Source of the DNA: Halobacillus litoralis
Lineage (GTDB): Bacteria; Bacillota; Bacilli; Bacillales; Halobacillaceae
Direction: 5' to 3'
Assembly: GCF_020524085.2 (NCBI RefSeq)
Contig: NZ_CP129016.1
Location: forward strand, 1,854,001 to 1,918,000
DNA length: 64,000 nt
The stretch's first letter is position 1. Every line of letters begins with the position of its first letter. A model generated the notes under the pieces. The model worked only from the letters and a program-made list of their open reading frames with translations, searched no databases and was not told the DNA's origin. Position numbers and translations under genes: made by a program. This document shows positions 1,818-56,522 of the stretch, piece after piece.

Positions 1818-2999
1818 ATGAATAAGAAAACAATCCGCGATGTTGAAGTGCAAGGAAAAACGGTCTTTTGCCGTGTGGACTTCAACGTACCGATGAGTGA
1901 GGGAGAAGTCACAGACGACACTCGAATCAAAGCTGCCCTCCCTACAATCAAGCACCTGACTGGAAACGGTGCGAAAGTCATTCTTGCCAGTCACCTTGGA
2001 CGCCCTAAAGGGGAAGTTGTCGAAGACCTTCGTCTTGATCCTGTAGCCAATCGTCTGAGCGATGTTCTTGGACAAACCGTTACAAAAACGGATGAAGTTC
2101 ACGGGGCTGAAGTGAACAAAGCCATTTCTCAAATGGAAAACGGTGATGTTCTTCTGATTGAAAACGTTCGCTTCCATCCTGGTGAAGAGAAGAATGATGC
2201 GGAATTGGCCAAGGCTTTTGCAGACATGGCTGACCTCTATGTAAATGATGCATTCGGTGCTGCTCACCGTGCCCATGCTTCTACAGCAGGTGTTGCGGAG
2301 CATATCCCAGCCGTTGCTGGTTTCCTGATGGAGAAAGAAATCAATGTTCTAGGTAAGGCTTTGTCTAACCCTGAGCGTCCATTCACAGCCATCATTGGTG
2401 GTGCGAAAGTAAAAGATAAAATCGGTGTCATTGACAACTTAATCGATAAAGTTGATAACTTGATTATCGGTGGAGGTCTTGCTTACACATTCGTAAAAGC
2501 ACTAGGTCATGAAATCGGTAAATCACTTCTAGAAGAAGATAAAATCGATCTAGCTAAAGAATATATGAAGAAAGCAGAAGAGAAAGGCGTCAACTTCCTA
2601 ATGCCGGAAGATGTTGTTGTTGCTGATGATTTCTCTGATTCTGCGAACAAGGAAGAAGTCGGAATCGACAGCATCCCATCCGATTGGGAAGCCCTTGATA
2701 TCGGTCCGAAAACGAGAGAAAAATATGCGAAAGTTATTAAAGATTCCAAATTGGTTATCTGGAACGGACCTATGGGCGTCTTTGAAATCGAATCTTTTGC
2801 TAACGGTACAAAAGCTGTAGCGAATGCTCTTTCCGAAACAGATGGCTACACGGTCATCGGTGGAGGCGACTCTGCAGCAGCCGTTGAGAAATTCGGATAC
2901 GCAAATGACATGGACCACGTCTCCACAGGTGGCGGTGCTTCCTTGGAATTCATGGAAGGTAAAGATCTTCATGGTGTATCCTTGTTGAACGATAAATAA
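1818..2999 (+). CDS. pgk: Phosphoglycerate kinase
   Basis: Transfers phosphate from 1,3-bisphosphoglycerate to ADP in glycolysis. The 393-residue protein has the N-terminal signature [13 protein letters not shown], substrate-binding SHLGRPKGE, the hinge region with [12 protein letters not shown] and the C-terminal nucleotide loop [14 protein letters not shown] chose the ATG at 1818 because aaggagg lies 10 bp upstream and the protein then starts like other Pgk proteins; an in-frame start at 1782 would add 12 atypical residues. Second gene of the glycolytic operon proper, followed 19 bp later by tpiA. Confidence 0.97.
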
Positions 3000-3018
3000 A
3001 AAGGAGAGGTGAAACCAT

Positions 3019-3772
3019 ATGCGTAAAAAAGTAATCGCTGGTAACTGGAAAATGAATAAAAACCACCGTGAAGCGGAAGATTTTATTCAAACAGCTAAAA
3101 ACGAAGTACCTTCCTCTGAGCAGGTAGAATCGGTTGTTTGTGCTCCATTTCCTTTTCTACAAAAACTTGTAGAGGAAACAGAAGGCACAAGCCTTAAAAT
3201 CGGTGCTCAAAACATGCACTTTGAGGAAAGCGGTGCGTTCACTGGTGAAGTAAGCCCGGTCATGCTGAAAGAACTTGGAGTTTCTTACGTCGTACTTGGT
3301 CACTCCGAGCGTCGTGAAATCTTCAAGGAAACGGATGAAGAGGTAAACAAAAAAGTTCATGCTGCATTCAACCATGGCTTAACACCAATTATTTGTGTAG
3401 GGGAATCTCTAGAACAGCGTGAAGCAAATGAAACGATGGACGTTGTTGAGACACAAGTGAAAAAAGCATTGGACGGTCTTACAAATGATCAATGTGCAGA
3501 AACAATCATTGCTTATGAGCCGATCTGGGCGATTGGTACAGGGCGTACAGCTACGTCTGAACAAGCGAATGAAGTATGTACACACATCCGTAAAGTCGTC
3601 AGTGATTATGTCAGTGCAGATGCAGCGGAAGCTGTCCGCATTCAATACGGTGGCAGCGTGAAGCCTGCAAACGTTGATGAACTACTATCTCAGTCCGACA
3701 TTGATGGTGCTCTAGTAGGAGGGGCCAGCCTTGAAGCTGATTCCTTCCTAAAACTAGTGGAGGCAGGTAAGA

Positions 3773-3780: not shown

Positions 3781-6611
<2,831 letters not shown>

Positions 6612-51185: not shown

Positions 51186-51470
51186 ATGAGTATAGAGAAA
51201 ATAAGAAAAGCGAAAGAAGCGATTGGCCGGGTAATCCTCGGTAAAGATGAAGTTGTAGAACTGCTGTTTGTCTCAATCATTGCAGATGGACACGCACTTC
51301 TAGAAAGTGTGCCTGGATCTGGGAAGACGAAACTTGCTAAAAGTTTTGCTAAAGTGATGGATGGAAAATTCTCACGGATTCAATTCACCCCAGATGTCCT
51401 TCCGAGTGCCCCCACAATGAGAACAACTTTACTGCTTAAGCCGTGGGAACCGAACCAGTGGAACAATTGA
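51186..51470 (+). pseudogene. MoxR-family AAA ATPase, truncated remnant
   Basis: The first ~75 residues are a normal MoxR start: AKEAIGRVILGKDEVVELLF, SIIADGHALLESVPGSGKTK (Walker A) and RIQFTPDVLPS. In intact MoxR proteins DVTG follows; here the sequence turns into unrelated APTMRTTLLLKPWEPNQWNN and stops. Walker B, sensor and C-terminal parts (about 240 residues) are missing. MoxR normally heads an operon with a DUF58 protein and membrane proteins such as the DUF4129 gene found just downstream. This is not a simple frameshift: sequence is lost. Confidence 0.8.
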
Positions 51471-51717
51471 TCCATGGGCAGGAGCCTTTGTTCTTTATCT
51501 ATTCGGGTCAACATTTCCAGGGATTGACGTAAATGAACGTTTCCTTCCCCTTTTTCTTGATAAAAATAAGGATTTCTTTGAGGTCTGCGCATATCCCTGA
51601 TGGAACCATAGATCAGTTAAAAGATTGGGAATCTAAAGGTATCGTTGTCGTTCAGGTGCAGACGAATGGTTCATCTGCCTATTTACGGCCCGTCTTACAA
51701 AGGGGGAGGGCTTGAAT
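51471..51717 (+). pseudogene. Remnant region between MoxR and the DUF4129 gene (possibly the end of a DUF58 protein)
   Basis: No single frame runs through. The last piece reads AHIPDGTIDQLKDWESKGIV, VVQVQTNGSSAYLRPVL to a TGA at 51714-51716 that abuts the next gene, and looks like the last strand-helix-strand of a von Willebrand A-like DUF58 protein, the expected neighbour. Another frame shows a plausible but unanchored stretch (GAFVLYLFGSTFPGID). I cannot reconstruct the parent gene. Interpretation depends on context. Confidence 0.45.
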
Positions 51718-52938
51718 ATGGTAGAAGGAAAAAGGAATATCATTTTTGTATATCAGACCTTAGGGGAAGCCATGCTTTTCTTTGTTCTTTGTTTTCCTTT
51801 GATTCAGTTGGTATCTCTATCCCTTCCCTATATTCTTTTTAGCACATACGTGATGGTTAGTATTGTTTTATTTTTCCTTATGAGAAGGTGGTTGACAAAC
51901 TTTACTCCCTATTTAGTTAGTTTAGTGGCATTAATAGCGGCTGCCTATATTATGGGAGCTAGTTTATTAGTAGCACTCGTGGTCGGATCCTTTCTAGTAT
52001 GGAGATATTACCGGCACGAAACGGATCCTGATTTGAATAATGAAATTTCATTGATTTTATACACAACGGTTTTCACTTTTATCATGATATTCTTCTTCCA
52101 GTCCTGGGATCTTGTCTACGCATTGATTTCCCTATATGTGGTCACGTGGGGAGGACATGCTTTTTCACATTATTACAATGTAGATAAAAGGGAGAGAAAA
52201 GGAGGGTGGAAAGGTCTCTTCGTCATCTTTCTGTCTTTAATCACAGGCACTTCTCTTATGCTGCTTCTTTTTCCATATCTTCGTTTATTAATTGGAACAC
52301 TCTGGAGCGGGATTACGTACGCCTTTCTTGTAGGAGTGAACGGAATTTTGACGCTGCTTGCCAAAATCGGTCTGGATGTTTCTAAAATCGAGCCTGTGGA
52401 AGAAGGTTCTTTGCCGGAATTGCAGGTTTCATCTCCAGAAAGGCAGGAAGAACTCCAACGAATGAATGAAAGCAATCAAGAAACCACTCAAAAAGTAGCG
52501 GAGGCGATTGAGACAGGAACACTGGTTTTGATTGTCGTTGCCATCCTTTTGGCTTTGGTCATCTTTTTCTTTTTGAGAAAAAGAGCGACCATGGATATGA
52601 ACCCCGCCCCTGATGCTCTCAACTATCAGTATTATGCGTATGATAAAGGAGAGAAAAAAAGAGCCTCTTCTTCCATTCCTTTTCGAAGGTCACTTACAGA
52701 AGGGTGGGAGAGAAAGCAGTTTCGAACATTTGAACATTTTGCAAGGCGGCATGGGTATGGCAGATATCCCAATGAATCACTGGAAGACTGGTTTGATAGA
52801 ATCGGGCTTGGTATTGAATCGACGGTCCTTTATCAAAAAGTGCGGTATGGAAGTCAGAAATTAACCACCGACGAAAAGGATCAATTTGAGCTTGAATTGA
52901 AAGAACTGAAACAAAAAATCATTGAGAAAGAGCAATGA
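51718..52938 (+). CDS. DUF4129 domain membrane protein
   Basis: A 406-residue protein with about five N-terminal membrane helices (within residues 15-185), an extracytoplasmic loop (about 200-255), another helix (about 260-285; LVLIVVAILLALVIFFFL) and a cytoplasmic C-terminal DUF4129 domain: FRTFEHFARRHGYGRYPNES, LEDWFDRIG, KVRYGSQKLTTDEKDQF. Such proteins accompany MoxR and DUF58 proteins, sometimes with transglutaminase domains. The ATG at 51718 follows gggaggg and overlaps the end of the upstream remnant, indicating an original operon. Function unknown. Confidence 0.78.
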   Translation: MVEGKRNIIFVYQTLGEAMLFFVLCFPLIQLVSLSLPYILFSTYVMVSIVLFFLMRRWLTNFTPYLVSLVALIAAAYIMGASLLVALVVGSFLVWRYYRHETDPDLNNEISLILYTTVFTFIMIFFFQSWDLVYALISLYVVTWGGHAFSHYYNVDKRERKGGWKGLFVIFLSLITGTSLMLLLFPYLRLLIGTLWSGITYAFLVGVNGILTLLAKIGLDVSKIEPVEEGSLPELQVSSPERQEELQRMNESNQETTQKVAEAIETGTLVLIVVAILLALVIFFFLRKRATMDMNPAPDALNYQYYAYDKGEKKRASSSIPFRRSLTEGWERKQFRTFEHFARRHGYGRYPNESLEDWFDRIGLGIESTVLYQKVRYGSQKLTTDEKDQFELELKELKQKIIEKEQ

Positions 52939-53025: not shown

Positions 53026-53832
53026 ATGGACTTAAATAAAGAAATAAAGAAACTAGAGGCAGTACATTTAGAAAAACCACAAAAAGTATTTACGATGTAT
53101 TTAAACACCGACCCTTCCGACCCTGATCAACAAGGGGGAGAATGGAAGATCCATTTGAAGAACGGATTGAATAATTTCGAATCCTATCTTCAAGAAGATG
53201 GCGATTCGGACGAAAAGAGAAACTATTGGGCAGTAAAAGAAAAAGTGGAGCAATTCATAGAAGAAAATGAACAACACTTTGCTAAAAGTGTTGTCCTATT
53301 CGCCACTGGCGATGAAACGGTATGGTTTGCGGAGCGTTTCCAAATGCCTGTGAAAACAGAATTCTACTGGGAAGAAACTCCTGTCCTGGACCAATTGAAA
53401 GAAATGCAGAATAAGTTCCCTAAGACAGGAGTCATCTTAACTCAGAAAAATCAAATTAAATTGATTGATGCAGAACTTGGAACGTTGAATGATACTCAGT
53501 TGTTTGAACTTGATCTGGATACGGAAGATTGGAGACAGCATCAAGGGCCGCACCGTGCTCAGCCTTCTATGGGGTCTGGTGGTGCCAAAACTTCTAAGAG
53601 GGATCAATTTCAAGAGCGCTTTGAGGCCAATCGTTATCGTTGGTACAAGAGTGTAGCTCCTAAGATTGATAAACTAGCTAAAGAATATGGCTGGGAGCGC
53701 TTCTATCTTGTCGGTGATAAAGAAGAGTTAAAAGACTTGCAGGATAACATGAATAAAGAAGCGGATGATATGATCAACAAAAATCTTCTGGATCATGAAG
53801 AGATGCATGTACTTGAGGAAGTTGTACAATAG
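53026..53832 (+). CDS. VLRF1 family aeRF1-type release factor
   Basis: A 268-residue soluble protein. It shows the N-terminal domain KVFTMYLNTDPSDPDQQGGE, SVVLFATGDETVWFAERFQM, and the C-terminal FEANRYRWYKSVAPKIDKLA, YGWERFYLVGDKEELKDLQ. This is the bacterial VLRF1-type relative of archaeal/eukaryotic release factor 1, proposed to act on the ribosome in stalled-chain release or stress. Ribosome site aaaggag. Own terminator downstream and possible stress promoter upstream. Confidence 0.78.
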   Translation: MDLNKEIKKLEAVHLEKPQKVFTMYLNTDPSDPDQQGGEWKIHLKNGLNNFESYLQEDGDSDEKRNYWAVKEKVEQFIEENEQHFAKSVVLFATGDETVWFAERFQMPVKTEFYWEETPVLDQLKEMQNKFPKTGVILTQKNQIKLIDAELGTLNDTQLFELDLDTEDWRQHQGPHRAQPSMGSGGAKTSKRDQFQERFEANRYRWYKSVAPKIDKLAKEYGWERFYLVGDKEELKDLQDNMNKEADDMINKNLLDHEEMHVLEEVVQ

Positions 53833-53879: not shown

Positions 53880-54095
53880 ATGTATGGAGCGTTCTGGACT
53901 AAGAAGAGGCGTTCCCTCGTTTGGAATAGGAACAACCTGCGGCTCTACAGCCTAGGTCTTTTTTATAGGCGTGGTTTATCCCCGGGAGGTTTTTGTGCAT
54001 TTATTGGATAGCATTAAGGAGAATCTTAACATTATACATAGAAGAAATAGGTATGATAAAATATTATTTAATGAAAATAATTAGATTGGGGAATG
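53880..54095. other. Non-coding stretch upstream of the B12/STAS module
   Basis: No gene seen. AT-rich near the 3' end (taggtatgataaaatatt, about 54048-54065) with a TATGAT or TAAAAT -10 candidate but no matching -35. Confidence 0.4.
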
Positions 54096-54099
54096 ACAC

Positions 54100-54405
54100 A
54101 TGTTCGTCGTAGATTCTATGGTGCAGGTACCAGAGCATAAAGCGGATGATTTAATTGATATATATAGAAAACGATCCCGTCTTGTAGACCAGGCGGATGG
54201 TTTTATTTCCTTTCAACTGCTGCAGAACGACAGGAAACCTGGGGAACTAACGGTACACTTGGAATGGGAATCTAAAGAGGCCTACCTCAATTGGGCCCGT
54301 AGTGAGCAATTCAAGAAAATCCATGAATTAGAAAAGCAATATCCCGACCAGGAACTTCAGGGGATCGTGCCAAAGGTATCTAAATACGAGGTGGTCGCAA
54401 AGTGA
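54100..54405 (+). CDS. Antibiotic biosynthesis monooxygenase (ABM) domain protein
   Basis: A 101-residue ferredoxin-like-fold protein: MFVVDSMVQVPEHKADDLID, FISFQLLQNDRKPGELTVHL, EWESKEAYLNWARSEQFKKI. It is an ABM-domain protein, a group that includes heme-degrading IsdG/HmoB enzymes as well as small oxygenases. The pattern 'W-S-E-AY--W--SEQF' is common to all of them, so heme use cannot be claimed. The stop overlaps the next start (GTGA), making it the first gene of a tightly packed operon. Confidence 0.78.
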   Translation: MFVVDSMVQVPEHKADDLIDIYRKRSRLVDQADGFISFQLLQNDRKPGELTVHLEWESKEAYLNWARSEQFKKIHELEKQYPDQELQGIVPKVSKYEVVAK

Positions 54406-54770
54406 ATAAGTCGGAACAGAGCCGCTTAGTTCAATTAGTAGCAGATGAAATTTATGAGGCTTATCCATACCTTTGGGGAAAATTCGGTCAGAACGGAAGA
54501 GATCGGACCGAAGAAGATAACTTCCATCATTTAGATCATTTGCAGGCGGCTTATGAGATGGATAGTGTCGATTTTTTTATTGATTATACGAAGTGGCTGA
54601 ATACAGTTCTTACCTCTAGGGAAGTTCCTACTTCATTGATCATTGATAATTATGAACGCCTGGTACGCCTTCTTAAAGACATGGAGGTTGTGGACGAGGC
54701 CGAAAAACAGTGTTATATCAAATATTTGGACGAGGCCTTACAACATTTGCATACACTTTCAAAGAGGTGA
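54402..54770 (+). CDS. Helical protein resembling the N-terminal region of B12-binding sensor proteins
   Basis: A 122-residue all-helical protein: NFHHLDHLQAAYEMDSVDFF, IDYTKWLNTVLTSREVPTSL, IIDNYERLVRLLKDMEV. This pattern (H--YL--A, F--Y--W----L--R--P) is what I recall before the B12 domain in single-chain cobalamin-binding proteins. Start GTG overlaps the previous stop. One missing A near 54760 would fuse it to the next gene into a protein of about 343 residues; the existing ribosome site (aaagaggtg) argues for two genes. Either way the two parts probably act together. Confidence 0.6.
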   Translation: MNKSEQSRLVQLVADEIYEAYPYLWGKFGQNGRDRTEEDNFHHLDHLQAAYEMDSVDFFIDYTKWLNTVLTSREVPTSLIIDNYERLVRLLKDMEVVDEAEKQCYIKYLDEALQHLHTLSKR

Positions 54771-54775
54771 ATACT

Positions 54776-55435
54776 TTGGACGTGCAACACGAAATTTTAG
54801 CCCATTATTTCCTTCAAGGAGATGAACAAGGGGCAGAAGAATATATTAAAACTTTATTAGAAAAACATCCGAGAGCATATTTGTATGAAGATATCATTAC
54901 TCCCGCCATGTATTATATTGGAGAACTTTGGGAGAGAAATGAAATATCCGTTGCAGACGAACACTTGGCTACAGCCATCTGCGACTTCGTGCTTTCAAAA
55001 CTTCACTCAGAAAGCGGTCTTGTAAGTAGAAGACACCAAAAAAACTTCAAAGCTATGTTATTCGGTGTAGAAGAAGAACAGCATTACATAGGTTTGAAAA
55101 TGGTGGCGGATACGTTTAAAGACCATGGGTGGAGAGTACGTTATTTGGGACCGGACCTTCCTTTGGAACACTCCTTCACCCAAATTGAAAAATACAGACC
55201 TGATGTCATTGGAATATCAGCGGCCTTGCCTTATCGTCTAAAAACAATTAAGAGGTTGTTGGAGCGGTTTTCTCAATTAGAATGGAATCCGCTGATAATG
55301 ATTGGCGGAAGAATAGTGAAGAAGTACGACTTGAAAGAATTTGAATCTGAACAAGTGATGGTTGTCAAGGATCTGGATCATCTTAAACGTTGGTTCAATG
55401 AAGGAAGGGAAGAAACAATCAATGAAACGAGTTGA
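54776..55435 (+). CDS. Cobalamin (B12)-binding protein with CarH-type photosensory motif
   Basis: A 219-residue protein. A four-helix region (residues 1-80) carries W52-x9-E62-H63 (LWERNEISVADEHL), the signature that in CarH/LitR photoreceptors packs on the upper face of adenosylcobalamin. A Rossmann-type B12 domain follows, with E100-x2-H103-x2-G106 (GVEEEQHYIGLKM), where His would be the lower cobalt ligand, then DVIGISAALPYRLKTI and PLIMIGGRIV. No DNA-binding domain is present. Start TTG at 54776, after aaagaggtg. The 3' end overlaps the STAS gene by 14 bp. Confidence 0.82.
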   Translation: MDVQHEILAHYFLQGDEQGAEEYIKTLLEKHPRAYLYEDIITPAMYYIGELWERNEISVADEHLATAICDFVLSKLHSESGLVSRRHQKNFKAMLFGVEEEQHYIGLKMVADTFKDHGWRVRYLGPDLPLEHSFTQIEKYRPDVIGISAALPYRLKTIKRLLERFSQLEWNPLIMIGGRIVKKYDLKEFESEQVMVVKDLDHLKRWFNEGREETINETS

Positions 55436-56186
55436 ACGCAGCTTTCCCTTGCCGCACTTTATCATCAATAAAAACTTTAAGATTGAATCCTTATCGGATG
55501 AGGCTGTTGAGATGTTCGGCGAAATAAACAATCTTCTAAATGTTATGGATGAAGGAAGCCTCACCAAGATTGAAAAATGGGTTACCCCGGATGTTCATAA
55601 ACTTTCTGTAGAAGTTGCAATTAAGCCTTCTGATGAAGCGCAGAACCCTATCACATGCGATATGCATGTGAAGTGGAAAAATGATTTGTATGCAGAAGTG
55701 TTGATCATACCAAAAGATGAACAGTTATCGAAAGTTACCACAACCATGGATCAATTGCGGTCCCGTTTGAATGATACAAACTTTCAACTGCTTGAAGAAA
55801 AAGAGAAATTGGAAGACGCAATCCTACATGGGAATCGACTCTCGGCTCCGTTTATACGCTTAACGGAAGAAACCGCCTTAATTCCGCTCTTTGGTCATAT
55901 TACGGCTGATAAAATGTACACAGTGGAAGAGCCATTGCTGCAAGCCACACAGAACGGGGATACAGAGAGGGTTCTTTTTGATTTTACGGCAGTAGGACAA
56001 ATCGACGAGGATGGAGCTCAACTATTGAAAAATTTAATGACTTCCTTATGTTACATGGGCTCACAAGTCATCATCACCGGGGTTCGTCCAGAGCAGGTGA
56101 AACGGATCCAAAGGATTCATTTTTCTTCAGAAATTACTTTTATCAATTCTCTGCATCAAGCTTTAAAAAAATACTGCAATGATTAA
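55422..56186 (+). CDS. PAS-like plus STAS domain protein (RsbR-like)
   Basis: A 254-residue soluble protein. Residues 1-45 resemble a PAS core (LPHFIINKNFKIESLSDEAV, EMFG); a helical coiled-coil-like linker follows (about 118-148; LNDTNFQLLEEKEKLEDAIL); residues 150-250 form a STAS domain of the RsbR type (SAPFIRLTEETALIPLFGHI, VLFDFTAVGQIDEDGAQLL, SQVIITGVRPEQVKRI). RsbR-type proteins are stressosome subunits controlling anti-sigma or phosphatase switches. The ATG lies inside the end of the B12 gene, so both are translationally coupled and are likely partners. Confidence 0.82.
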   Translation: MKRVERSFPLPHFIINKNFKIESLSDEAVEMFGEINNLLNVMDEGSLTKIEKWVTPDVHKLSVEVAIKPSDEAQNPITCDMHVKWKNDLYAEVLIIPKDEQLSKVTTTMDQLRSRLNDTNFQLLEEKEKLEDAILHGNRLSAPFIRLTEETALIPLFGHITADKMYTVEEPLLQATQNGDTERVLFDFTAVGQIDEDGAQLLKNLMTSLCYMGSQVIITGVRPEQVKRIQRIHFSSEITFINSLHQALKKYCND

Positions 56187-56190
56187 AACT

Positions 56191-56221
56191 ACCCGCTCCT
56201 TAAATTAGGAAGCGGGTTTTT
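56191..56221 (+). terminator. Terminator of the B12/STAS operon
   Basis: Stem acccgct(cct) / (agg)agcgggt with one bulge, then T5. Confidence 0.88.
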
Positions 56222-56315: not shown

Positions 56316-56522
56316 ATGGAGATGACTTTAGAAGTAAATGGTATGACTTGTAATCACTGCGAGCAGTCCGTGAAGGGTGGCCTTCAAGAATTGGAAGGGG
56401 TACATGGTGTTGAAGTTGATCTAGACAGTGGGAAAGTAAATATCACATATGATGAAGCTTATGTAAGCAAAAAGATGATGAAGGAAGCCGTTGAAGCTCA
56501 AGGATATGAGCCAGTAGGGTAA
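56316..56522 (+). CDS. copZ: Copper chaperone CopZ
   Basis: A 68-residue heavy-metal-associated domain: LEVNGMTCNHCEQSVKGGLQ carries the CxxC copper site, followed by VEVDLDSGKVNITYDE and AVEAQGYEPVG. It hands Cu(I) to a P-type ATPase, which is not adjacent here; usually copA follows or precedes it. Good ribosome site (aaaggg). Own terminator. Confidence 0.92.
   Translation: MEMTLEVNGMTCNHCEQSVKGGLQELEGVHGVEVDLDSGKVNITYDEAYVSKKMMKEAVEAQGYEPVG

Follow-up and report, generated by a model that had tools for sequence, protein, structure and literature searches.

How can a cobalamin-binding protein that carries the residues of a light sensor, but no DNA-binding domain, pass on its signal? This question is raised by four genes on the forward strand of a 64,000-nucleotide stretch of the Halobacillus litoralis genome (contig NZ_CP129016.1, positions 1,854,001 to 1,918,000; hereafter the window). 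The genes lie head to tail between positions 54100 and 56186; two of the junctions overlap, by 4 and 14 bases, and the third leaves a gap of 5 bases. An initial annotation of this DNA had noted four overlapping or abutting genes. It recognized an ABM-domain protein, a helical protein, a B12-binding protein and a PAS-like plus STAS protein, and suggested that a B12 light sensor is coupled to a switch like those of YtvA and RsbR. The current analysis confirms its observation and partly supports its interpretation. We propose that the operon encodes a photocobilin-type B12 photoreceptor with two chromophores, split over two genes, together with a dedicated transducer by which the signal would reach the stressosome and sigma-B, a reading to which we give an even chance.

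The third protein matches two B12 domains of Pfam over cut-off (B12-binding_2, 6.3e-16; B12-binding, 3.6e-15) and no other. A MerR DNA-binding domain was not found, in agreement with the initial annotation, and the CarH model gave 60.9 bits against a cut-off of 400. The nearest sequences in the PDB are the photocobilin SasPcob (8j2w, 8e-17), the light-responsive CtMerR (8jbs, 4e-16) and CarH (5c8a, 8e-10). The ligand residues are placed as first described. They were compared among 92 orthologues, i.e., the window protein and those of 91 of the 95 further loci found in 199 sampled genomes of the order (four with a B12 frame below 200 amino acids were dropped), and W52, E62 and H103 are present in 92/92 and H63 in 91/92. 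The lower-ligand motif had been given as E-x2-H103-x2-G, and the window protein does read so, but the conserved form is E101-x-H103-x2-G106, and position 100 is variable. The light signature described for the B12 domain of photocobilins consists of GxxW, EH, GxxH and GxxxP (PMC11796333). It is found as G49-x2-W52, E62-H63, H103 and G125-x3-P129, with Glu100 in place of the glycine of GxxH, which is Gly in 39 of the 92 orthologues. Trp61, Glu71-His72 and His108 of SasPcob align with W52, E62-H63 and H103, while its His137, a bilin contact, aligns with H132. Overall, these sequence comparisons support a light-sensor signature of the CarH type in a protein without a DNA-binding domain. A gene for a B12 adenosyltransferase is present in the same genome. 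The genome also holds a second B12 protein (L192, 1210-2109), which is CarH-like, with MerR and B12 domains and W-x9-EH.

The second protein, for which Pfam gave no match over cut-off, is the one described at first as helical. The gene is real and conserved in relatives, but its identity had been missed: judged from its sequence, the product is a photoglobin. In fold comparison, bilin-binding globins are its closest likeness. The Asp and Trp that contact the bilin are present as D39 and W65 in 43/43 photoglobins, and Asp270 and Trp296 of SasPcob align with them at one constant numbering offset (counted manually on the alignments). W65 is invariant, and its counterpart in SasPcob touches the corrin. 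Schneider et al. (2022) are said to have named the photoglobin family and to have linked it with B12-binding domains. With a photoglobin as its second protein, the operon seems to hold a split photocobilin with B12 and bilin, and not the sensor of B12 alone that was suggested initially; the CarH-type signature stands. The first protein of the operon groups with heme-degrading enzymes. The photocobilins SasPcob and AbDPcob share the B12 domain with W-x9-EH and the lower His, and SasPcob has the Asp/Trp pair in its bilin globin (PMC10979010). Photocobilins are one chain; in the window's operon, which occurs in Bacillales, globin and B12 domain have separate genes, and to these are added an ABM gene and a PAS protein as dedicated transducer. 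The B12 protein and the photoglobin may thus work like a photocobilin, though outside its one-chain definition.

The ABM protein is tied to the photoglobin, which it adjoins in 14 of 20 hand-picked loci, most of them with the photoglobin away from the B12 gene. A profile of the ABM protein matched TT1380, of unknown function (4.6e-9), a heme-degrading monooxygenase (8.8e-9) and IsdI (2.2e-7) in the PDB, and the NCBIfam models for HmuQ, heme oxygenase and IsdG match it as well, all below cut-off. In fold and similarity it belongs with the heme-degrading monooxygenases of the IsdG/HmuQ type. Since no heme oxygenase of the HO-1 type (PF01126) was found in the 199 genomes, the ABM protein is the natural candidate for the source of the bilin.

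The same proteins and the same relay could, on the other hand, respond to a signal other than light, such as the form of B12, oxygen or redox state, with the ABM protein and the photoglobin reporting the level of heme or bilin to the stress response. The computed data fit a loss of the upper ligand by light as well as by chemical cleavage or exchange, and the ABM protein resembles enzymes of heme turnover. However, the residues kept here are found in proteins of demonstrated light response, and the partner globin is most like bilin-binding globins, so that we regard a non-light signal as rather unlikely.

If light is the signal, it has to be handed on, and the genetic data point to the partner. 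The pairing with the adjacent gene proposed in the initial annotation stands, but its emphasis on STAS does not: because output domains vary across the B12 loci, the PAS domain is the constant partner and STAS merely the commonest output. Among the 95 loci, the partner adjacent to the B12 gene is a PAS-STAS protein in 59, a PAS protein with an unassigned C-terminus in 22, a PAS-histidine kinase in 8, a PAS-GGDEF protein in 1 (with a weak PAS match, 1e-3) and a STAS protein without PAS in 1, and 4 loci have none. A count of STAS partners in 90/95 loci, obtained with a profile of the whole fourth protein, was rejected, since the PAS domain that the partners share had sufficed for a match; the final counts come from one profile for PAS and another for STAS. 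Pfam found HATPase in 8/8 kinase partners, one of them of 368 amino acids, and identified three neighbours of 298-347 amino acids as GGDEF proteins. The partners with an unassigned C-terminus have 165-220 amino acids and a C-terminal part that looks helical (e.g., in L103, L104, L111, L146 and L161); for the 13 of these 22 that were scanned, Pfam gave no STAS and no match over cut-off.

A PAS profile built from 19 adjacent partners and searched against the 199 genomes (E up to 1e-8) found the family at 98 places, 91 of which are within 1.5 kb of a B12 gene. By genome, both are present in 81, PAS only in 3, B12 only in 3 and neither in 112, and in two of the genomes counted as B12 only (G018, G168) a PAS-like protein does adjoin the B12 gene, with a match that misses the threshold. 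The PAS sequence of the window lacks the LOV cysteine motif, and light input would therefore come in trans from the B12 protein. In AerR-CrtJ and AppA SCHIC-PpsR, the protein that a B12 co-regulator acts on has a PAS domain; a crystal structure shows SCHIC bound to the helix that follows the PAS domain of PpsR, and AerR has been modelled likewise on CrtJ (PMC9144470). The stand-alone B12 protein of the operon is paired genetically with a PAS protein, and it may be a co-regulator of the AerR type. The target of AerR and SCHIC, however, is a DNA-binding regulator of photosynthesis genes, whereas that of the operon carries STAS, kinase or GGDEF.

For the STAS form, the comparisons point to the stressosome, of which YtvA is a member. 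The fourth protein matches STAS in Pfam (1.3e-11), and a structure model (pLDDT 81.5, pTM 0.48; moderate confidence) has a PAS fold, a helix and the STAS domain, in accordance with the domains first assigned. The best Foldseek match is full-length YtvA, with the two domains not superposable as one body (root-mean-square deviation 15.8), and the best VIA-align match is the Listeria RsbR of the stressosome, for the STAS half only. The protein has the order of sensor domain, helix and STAS seen in RsbR and YtvA. It reached 55.7 bits in the NCBIfam YtvA family, below the cut-off of 250, as did the genome's own RsbR (78.3). In the window's genome, rsbR and rsbS were identified by their match to the solved RsbR (8e-81) and RsbS (4e-51). 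The gene after rsbS has a weak likeness to the anti-sigma factor SpoIIAB and no match to a solved structure, and from its place in the operon we take it to be rsbT. In four inspected loci from two families, the photoreceptor operon lies 4.7-6.4 kb from rsbR. The genes between it and rsbRST are presumably unrelated, judging by their sequences, and the nearness may reflect old shared gene order and not selection.

The PAS-STAS protein might instead act outside the stressosome, for instance on another STAS partner kinase or phosphatase. At the positions of Thr171 and Thr205 of RsbR, the sites phosphorylated by RsbT, it has His and Glu, with Ser or Thr in 6 and 4 of 58 proteins, and the exchangeable outputs imply that the pathway need not be that of sigma-B. 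Yet YtvA, which likewise combines a PAS-fold (LOV) sensor, a linker helix and STAS, has Asn and Glu at these aligned positions. Besides, the best structural matches are YtvA and a stressosome RsbR, and a strong rsbT match is present in 58/58 genomes with the PAS-STAS form. Action elsewhere than in the stressosome is in our view rather unlikely.

The gene set as a whole was followed in a close set of 79 loci, taken from the best 80 of 300 matches and for that reason leaning to close kin; the sample of 199 genomes overlaps it in part. The conservation of the gene pair in relatives, set beforehand as a test of the initial proposal, held well, with PAS-STAS directly downstream of the B12 gene in 78/79 loci. 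The B12 gene is present in 79/79, the photoglobin in 78/79 and the ABM gene in 76/79, and all four genes occur in the window's order in 75/79. Conservation across 79 relatives indicates that the gene set is not a product of chance. One locus (L053) has no gene of this kind downstream; upstream of its ABM-photoglobin-B12 genes lies a different STAS gene, which is RsbR-like (4179-4988). In the corresponding locus L213 (genome G002) this upstream gene is at 2693-3442, and a PAS-STAS gene lies elsewhere in the genome. The ABM gene was undetected in L056 and L093, as were both ABM and photoglobin genes in L087. In L107 and L113 the B12 gene is interrupted, with the neighbouring operon genes still open.

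In the wider sample of 199 genomes, the B12 gene occurs in 84, in 72 of them together with a photoglobin and in 12 without a detected one, while 6 have a photoglobin only and 109 have neither. One of the photoglobin-only genomes (G170) has a divergent B12 gene beside the photoglobin. These numbers bear on the possibility that ABM-photoglobin and B12-PAS are independent units, co-transcribed in some genomes only. In 51/95 loci the B12 gene has no detected photoglobin at its side, and of the 82 places with a photoglobin, 34 are remote from a B12 gene. On a tree of the 92 B12 proteins, the presence of photoglobin in the operon requires 10 changes, at least 7 of them on well-supported branches. 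Position 132, aligned with a bilin contact, does not follow the photoglobin either (Tyr in 20 and His in 17 of 43 with it; Tyr in 19 and His in 9 of 49 without). Against independence stand the 72 genomes with both genes, compared to 12 and 6 with one, the invariant W65, and a broken gene (L212, 4812-5972, adjoining a GGDEF gene) in which a photoglobin-like part (8e-6) and a B12-like part are fused. The photocobilins of solved structure are, moreover, themselves fusions of B12 domain and globin. Two independent units are, in sum, improbable. Database labels ('methanogenic corrinoid protein MtbC1', for example) and NCBIfam matches below cut-off would make the B12 protein the corrinoid carrier of a methyl-transferring enzyme, but the absence of a methyltransferase among the operon genes, the conserved W-x9-EH and adjacent partners that are signalling proteins (STAS, kinase, GGDEF) leave this hardly credible.

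We hypothesize that, in the split photoreceptor, the B12 protein binds adenosylcobalamin via H103, with W52 and E62-H63 surrounding the adenosyl group. Next to it would sit the photoglobin with a bilin derived from heme, made or delivered with the help of the ABM protein. Together, the bilin-loaded photoglobin and the adenosylcobalamin-loaded B12 dimer would take up the arrangement of a photocobilin, but with separate chains. Light would break the cobalt-carbon bond, the helix of E62-H63 would move and the assembly of the B12 protein would change, comparable to what is described for SasPcob. By direct contact the signal could pass to the PAS domain or the linker helix of the fourth protein, for which AerR and SCHIC serve as the guide. 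The STAS domain, placed in the stressosome like that of YtvA, would shift RsbT and thereby sigma-B.

In addition to the 12 genomes without a detected photoglobin and to position 132, several points weigh against this scheme. The B12 protein shares the light-sensor core of CarH and LitR, but besides being without the MerR domain it has Glu53 at the position after the Trp where CarH has its bis-His histidine (Glu in 41/43 and 39/49 orthologues). Because this residue is Glu, the light state might resemble that of CtMerR or SasPcob, which are described as also being without the histidine. In the ABM protein, W65, H75 and Ser6 are invariant in 22 rows. Ser6 takes the place of the catalytic Asn in the Asn-Trp-His triad of IsdG, of which two of three residues are thus kept, and its presence in all 22 rows makes heme cleavage doubtful. 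A linker motif of the type R-x2-L-x2-T-N is not common to the other outputs, being found in 53/59 PAS-STAS, 5/22 PAS-unassigned, 0/8 kinase and 0/1 GGDEF proteins (2.4% of shuffled segments); the docking site may therefore differ between them or lie on the PAS domain itself. The co-occurrence with rsbT, a check proposed with the initial annotation, is complete for the PAS-STAS genomes, but a strong match is present in 22/22 PAS-unassigned genomes as well. Among genomes with the B12 gene it is found in 81/84, against 69/115 without it, and because of its presence in these other genomes the link between rsbT and STAS may partly reflect kinship. The B12 genomes without a strong rsbT match (G063, G152 and G177) carry the kinase form only, yet G152 and G177 do have weaker matches (1e-20, 3e-21). 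None of the co-occurrence counts, for rsbT, photoglobin or PAS, takes account of phylogeny. Finally, a sigma-B-like site was found in 0 of 77 upstream regions, where shuffles gave 2.1.

On a broader scale, the results suggest a unit of the Bacillales in which a stand-alone B12 photoreceptor is joined to a near-obligate PAS receiver with an exchanged STAS, histidine kinase, GGDEF or helical output, often accompanied by a photoglobin and an IsdG-like bilin-making enzyme; the STAS form would be a cobalamin-plus-bilin light input to the stressosome. We place this wider claim slightly below even. The well-known light input of the stressosome is blue light via YtvA, and the sensing of green or red light by B12 and bilin would be added to it in ordinary Bacillales.

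Parts of this picture are already in print: photocobilins, globin and B12 genes with heme oxygenase (PMC10151467), predicted STAS partners (PMC10979010) and AerR-CrtJ. Stand-alone photocobilins were suggested to act by protein contact, and STAS, SpoIIE and PP2C partners were predicted for Saccharothrix (PMC10979010). In the BBAG-2 clusters, separate globin and B12-binding genes likewise stand side by side and are tied to heme oxygenase, and the two globins tested carried biliverdin. These clusters differ in having a heme oxygenase with a bilin reductase, and related globins of Myxococcales, and the words IsdG and STAS are absent from the main text of that paper (PMC10151467). Our searches returned no paper that describes exchangeable outputs of a B12-PAS pair or a stressosome with B12 input; Schneider et al. 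(2022), which lay outside our coverage, may already list such operons of Bacillales. For optogenetics, the operon would be a naturally split photocobilin, with a PAS receiver on which evolution has already exchanged the output. It would also allow experiments on signalling by protein contact from a stand-alone B12 photoreceptor, a mode that the photocobilin paper calls less clear for such forms.

Table 1. Features of the photoreceptor operon and its flanks, in window positions.
Feature	Position	Strand	Basis
Promoter-like box TTATACA-N13-TATGATAAAATA	54032..54063	+	upstream of ABM gene
ABM-fold protein, 101 amino acids, IsdG/HmuQ-like, possible heme-degrading bilin-making enzyme	54100..54405	+	Pfam ABM 9.4e-18
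Stand-alone photoglobin (the 'helical protein' of the initial annotation), 122 amino acids, GTG start	54402..54770	+	
B12-binding sensor without DNA-binding domain, 219 amino acids, W52 E62 H63 H103, TTG start	54776..55435	+	
PAS-helix-STAS protein, 254 amino acids, ATG start	55422..56186	+	
PAS domain, residues 1-100	55422..55721	+	model topology
Long helical linker (residues 100-140), candidate docking site	55719..55841	+	model
STAS domain, residues 141-252	55842..56177	+	Pfam, structure matches
Terminator-like inverted repeat CCCGCT/AGCGGG, then T run	56192..56221	+	read directly in sequence

The genome of the window has 3.95 Mb, and its nearest relatives are Halobacillus with 99% identity in the B12 protein. 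An in-frame GTG at 54767 precedes the TTG start of the B12 gene. A box of the form TTATACA-N12..14-TATGATA (up to 3/14 mismatches) lies 5' of the ABM gene in 21 of 24 Halobacillus regions, versus 10% of shuffled ones. At the window's own box, a scan for sigma-70-type sites gives TATACA-18-TAAAAT with TG, and the site count of the region is near the shuffled mean. The inverted repeat behind the operon is not listed by a scan with a loop limit of 8.

Two neighbouring genes were not counted in the operon. The one upstream (53026-53832) belongs to baeRF family 5 (Pfam, 1.1e-51), and its product has a likeness to the ribosome hibernation factor of the MSMEG_1130 type (74 bits, cut-off 480). The short open reading frame downstream (56316-56522) carries GMTCNHC, which we take to resemble the motif of copper-chaperone HMA proteins, and a similar frame is found downstream in L107, where upstream and downstream neighbours resemble those of the window. 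Further upstream, at 51186-51720, a frame of 94 amino acids, presumably the start of a MoxR-like ATPase, seems to be truncated, other frames being open after it, and is possibly a broken gene.

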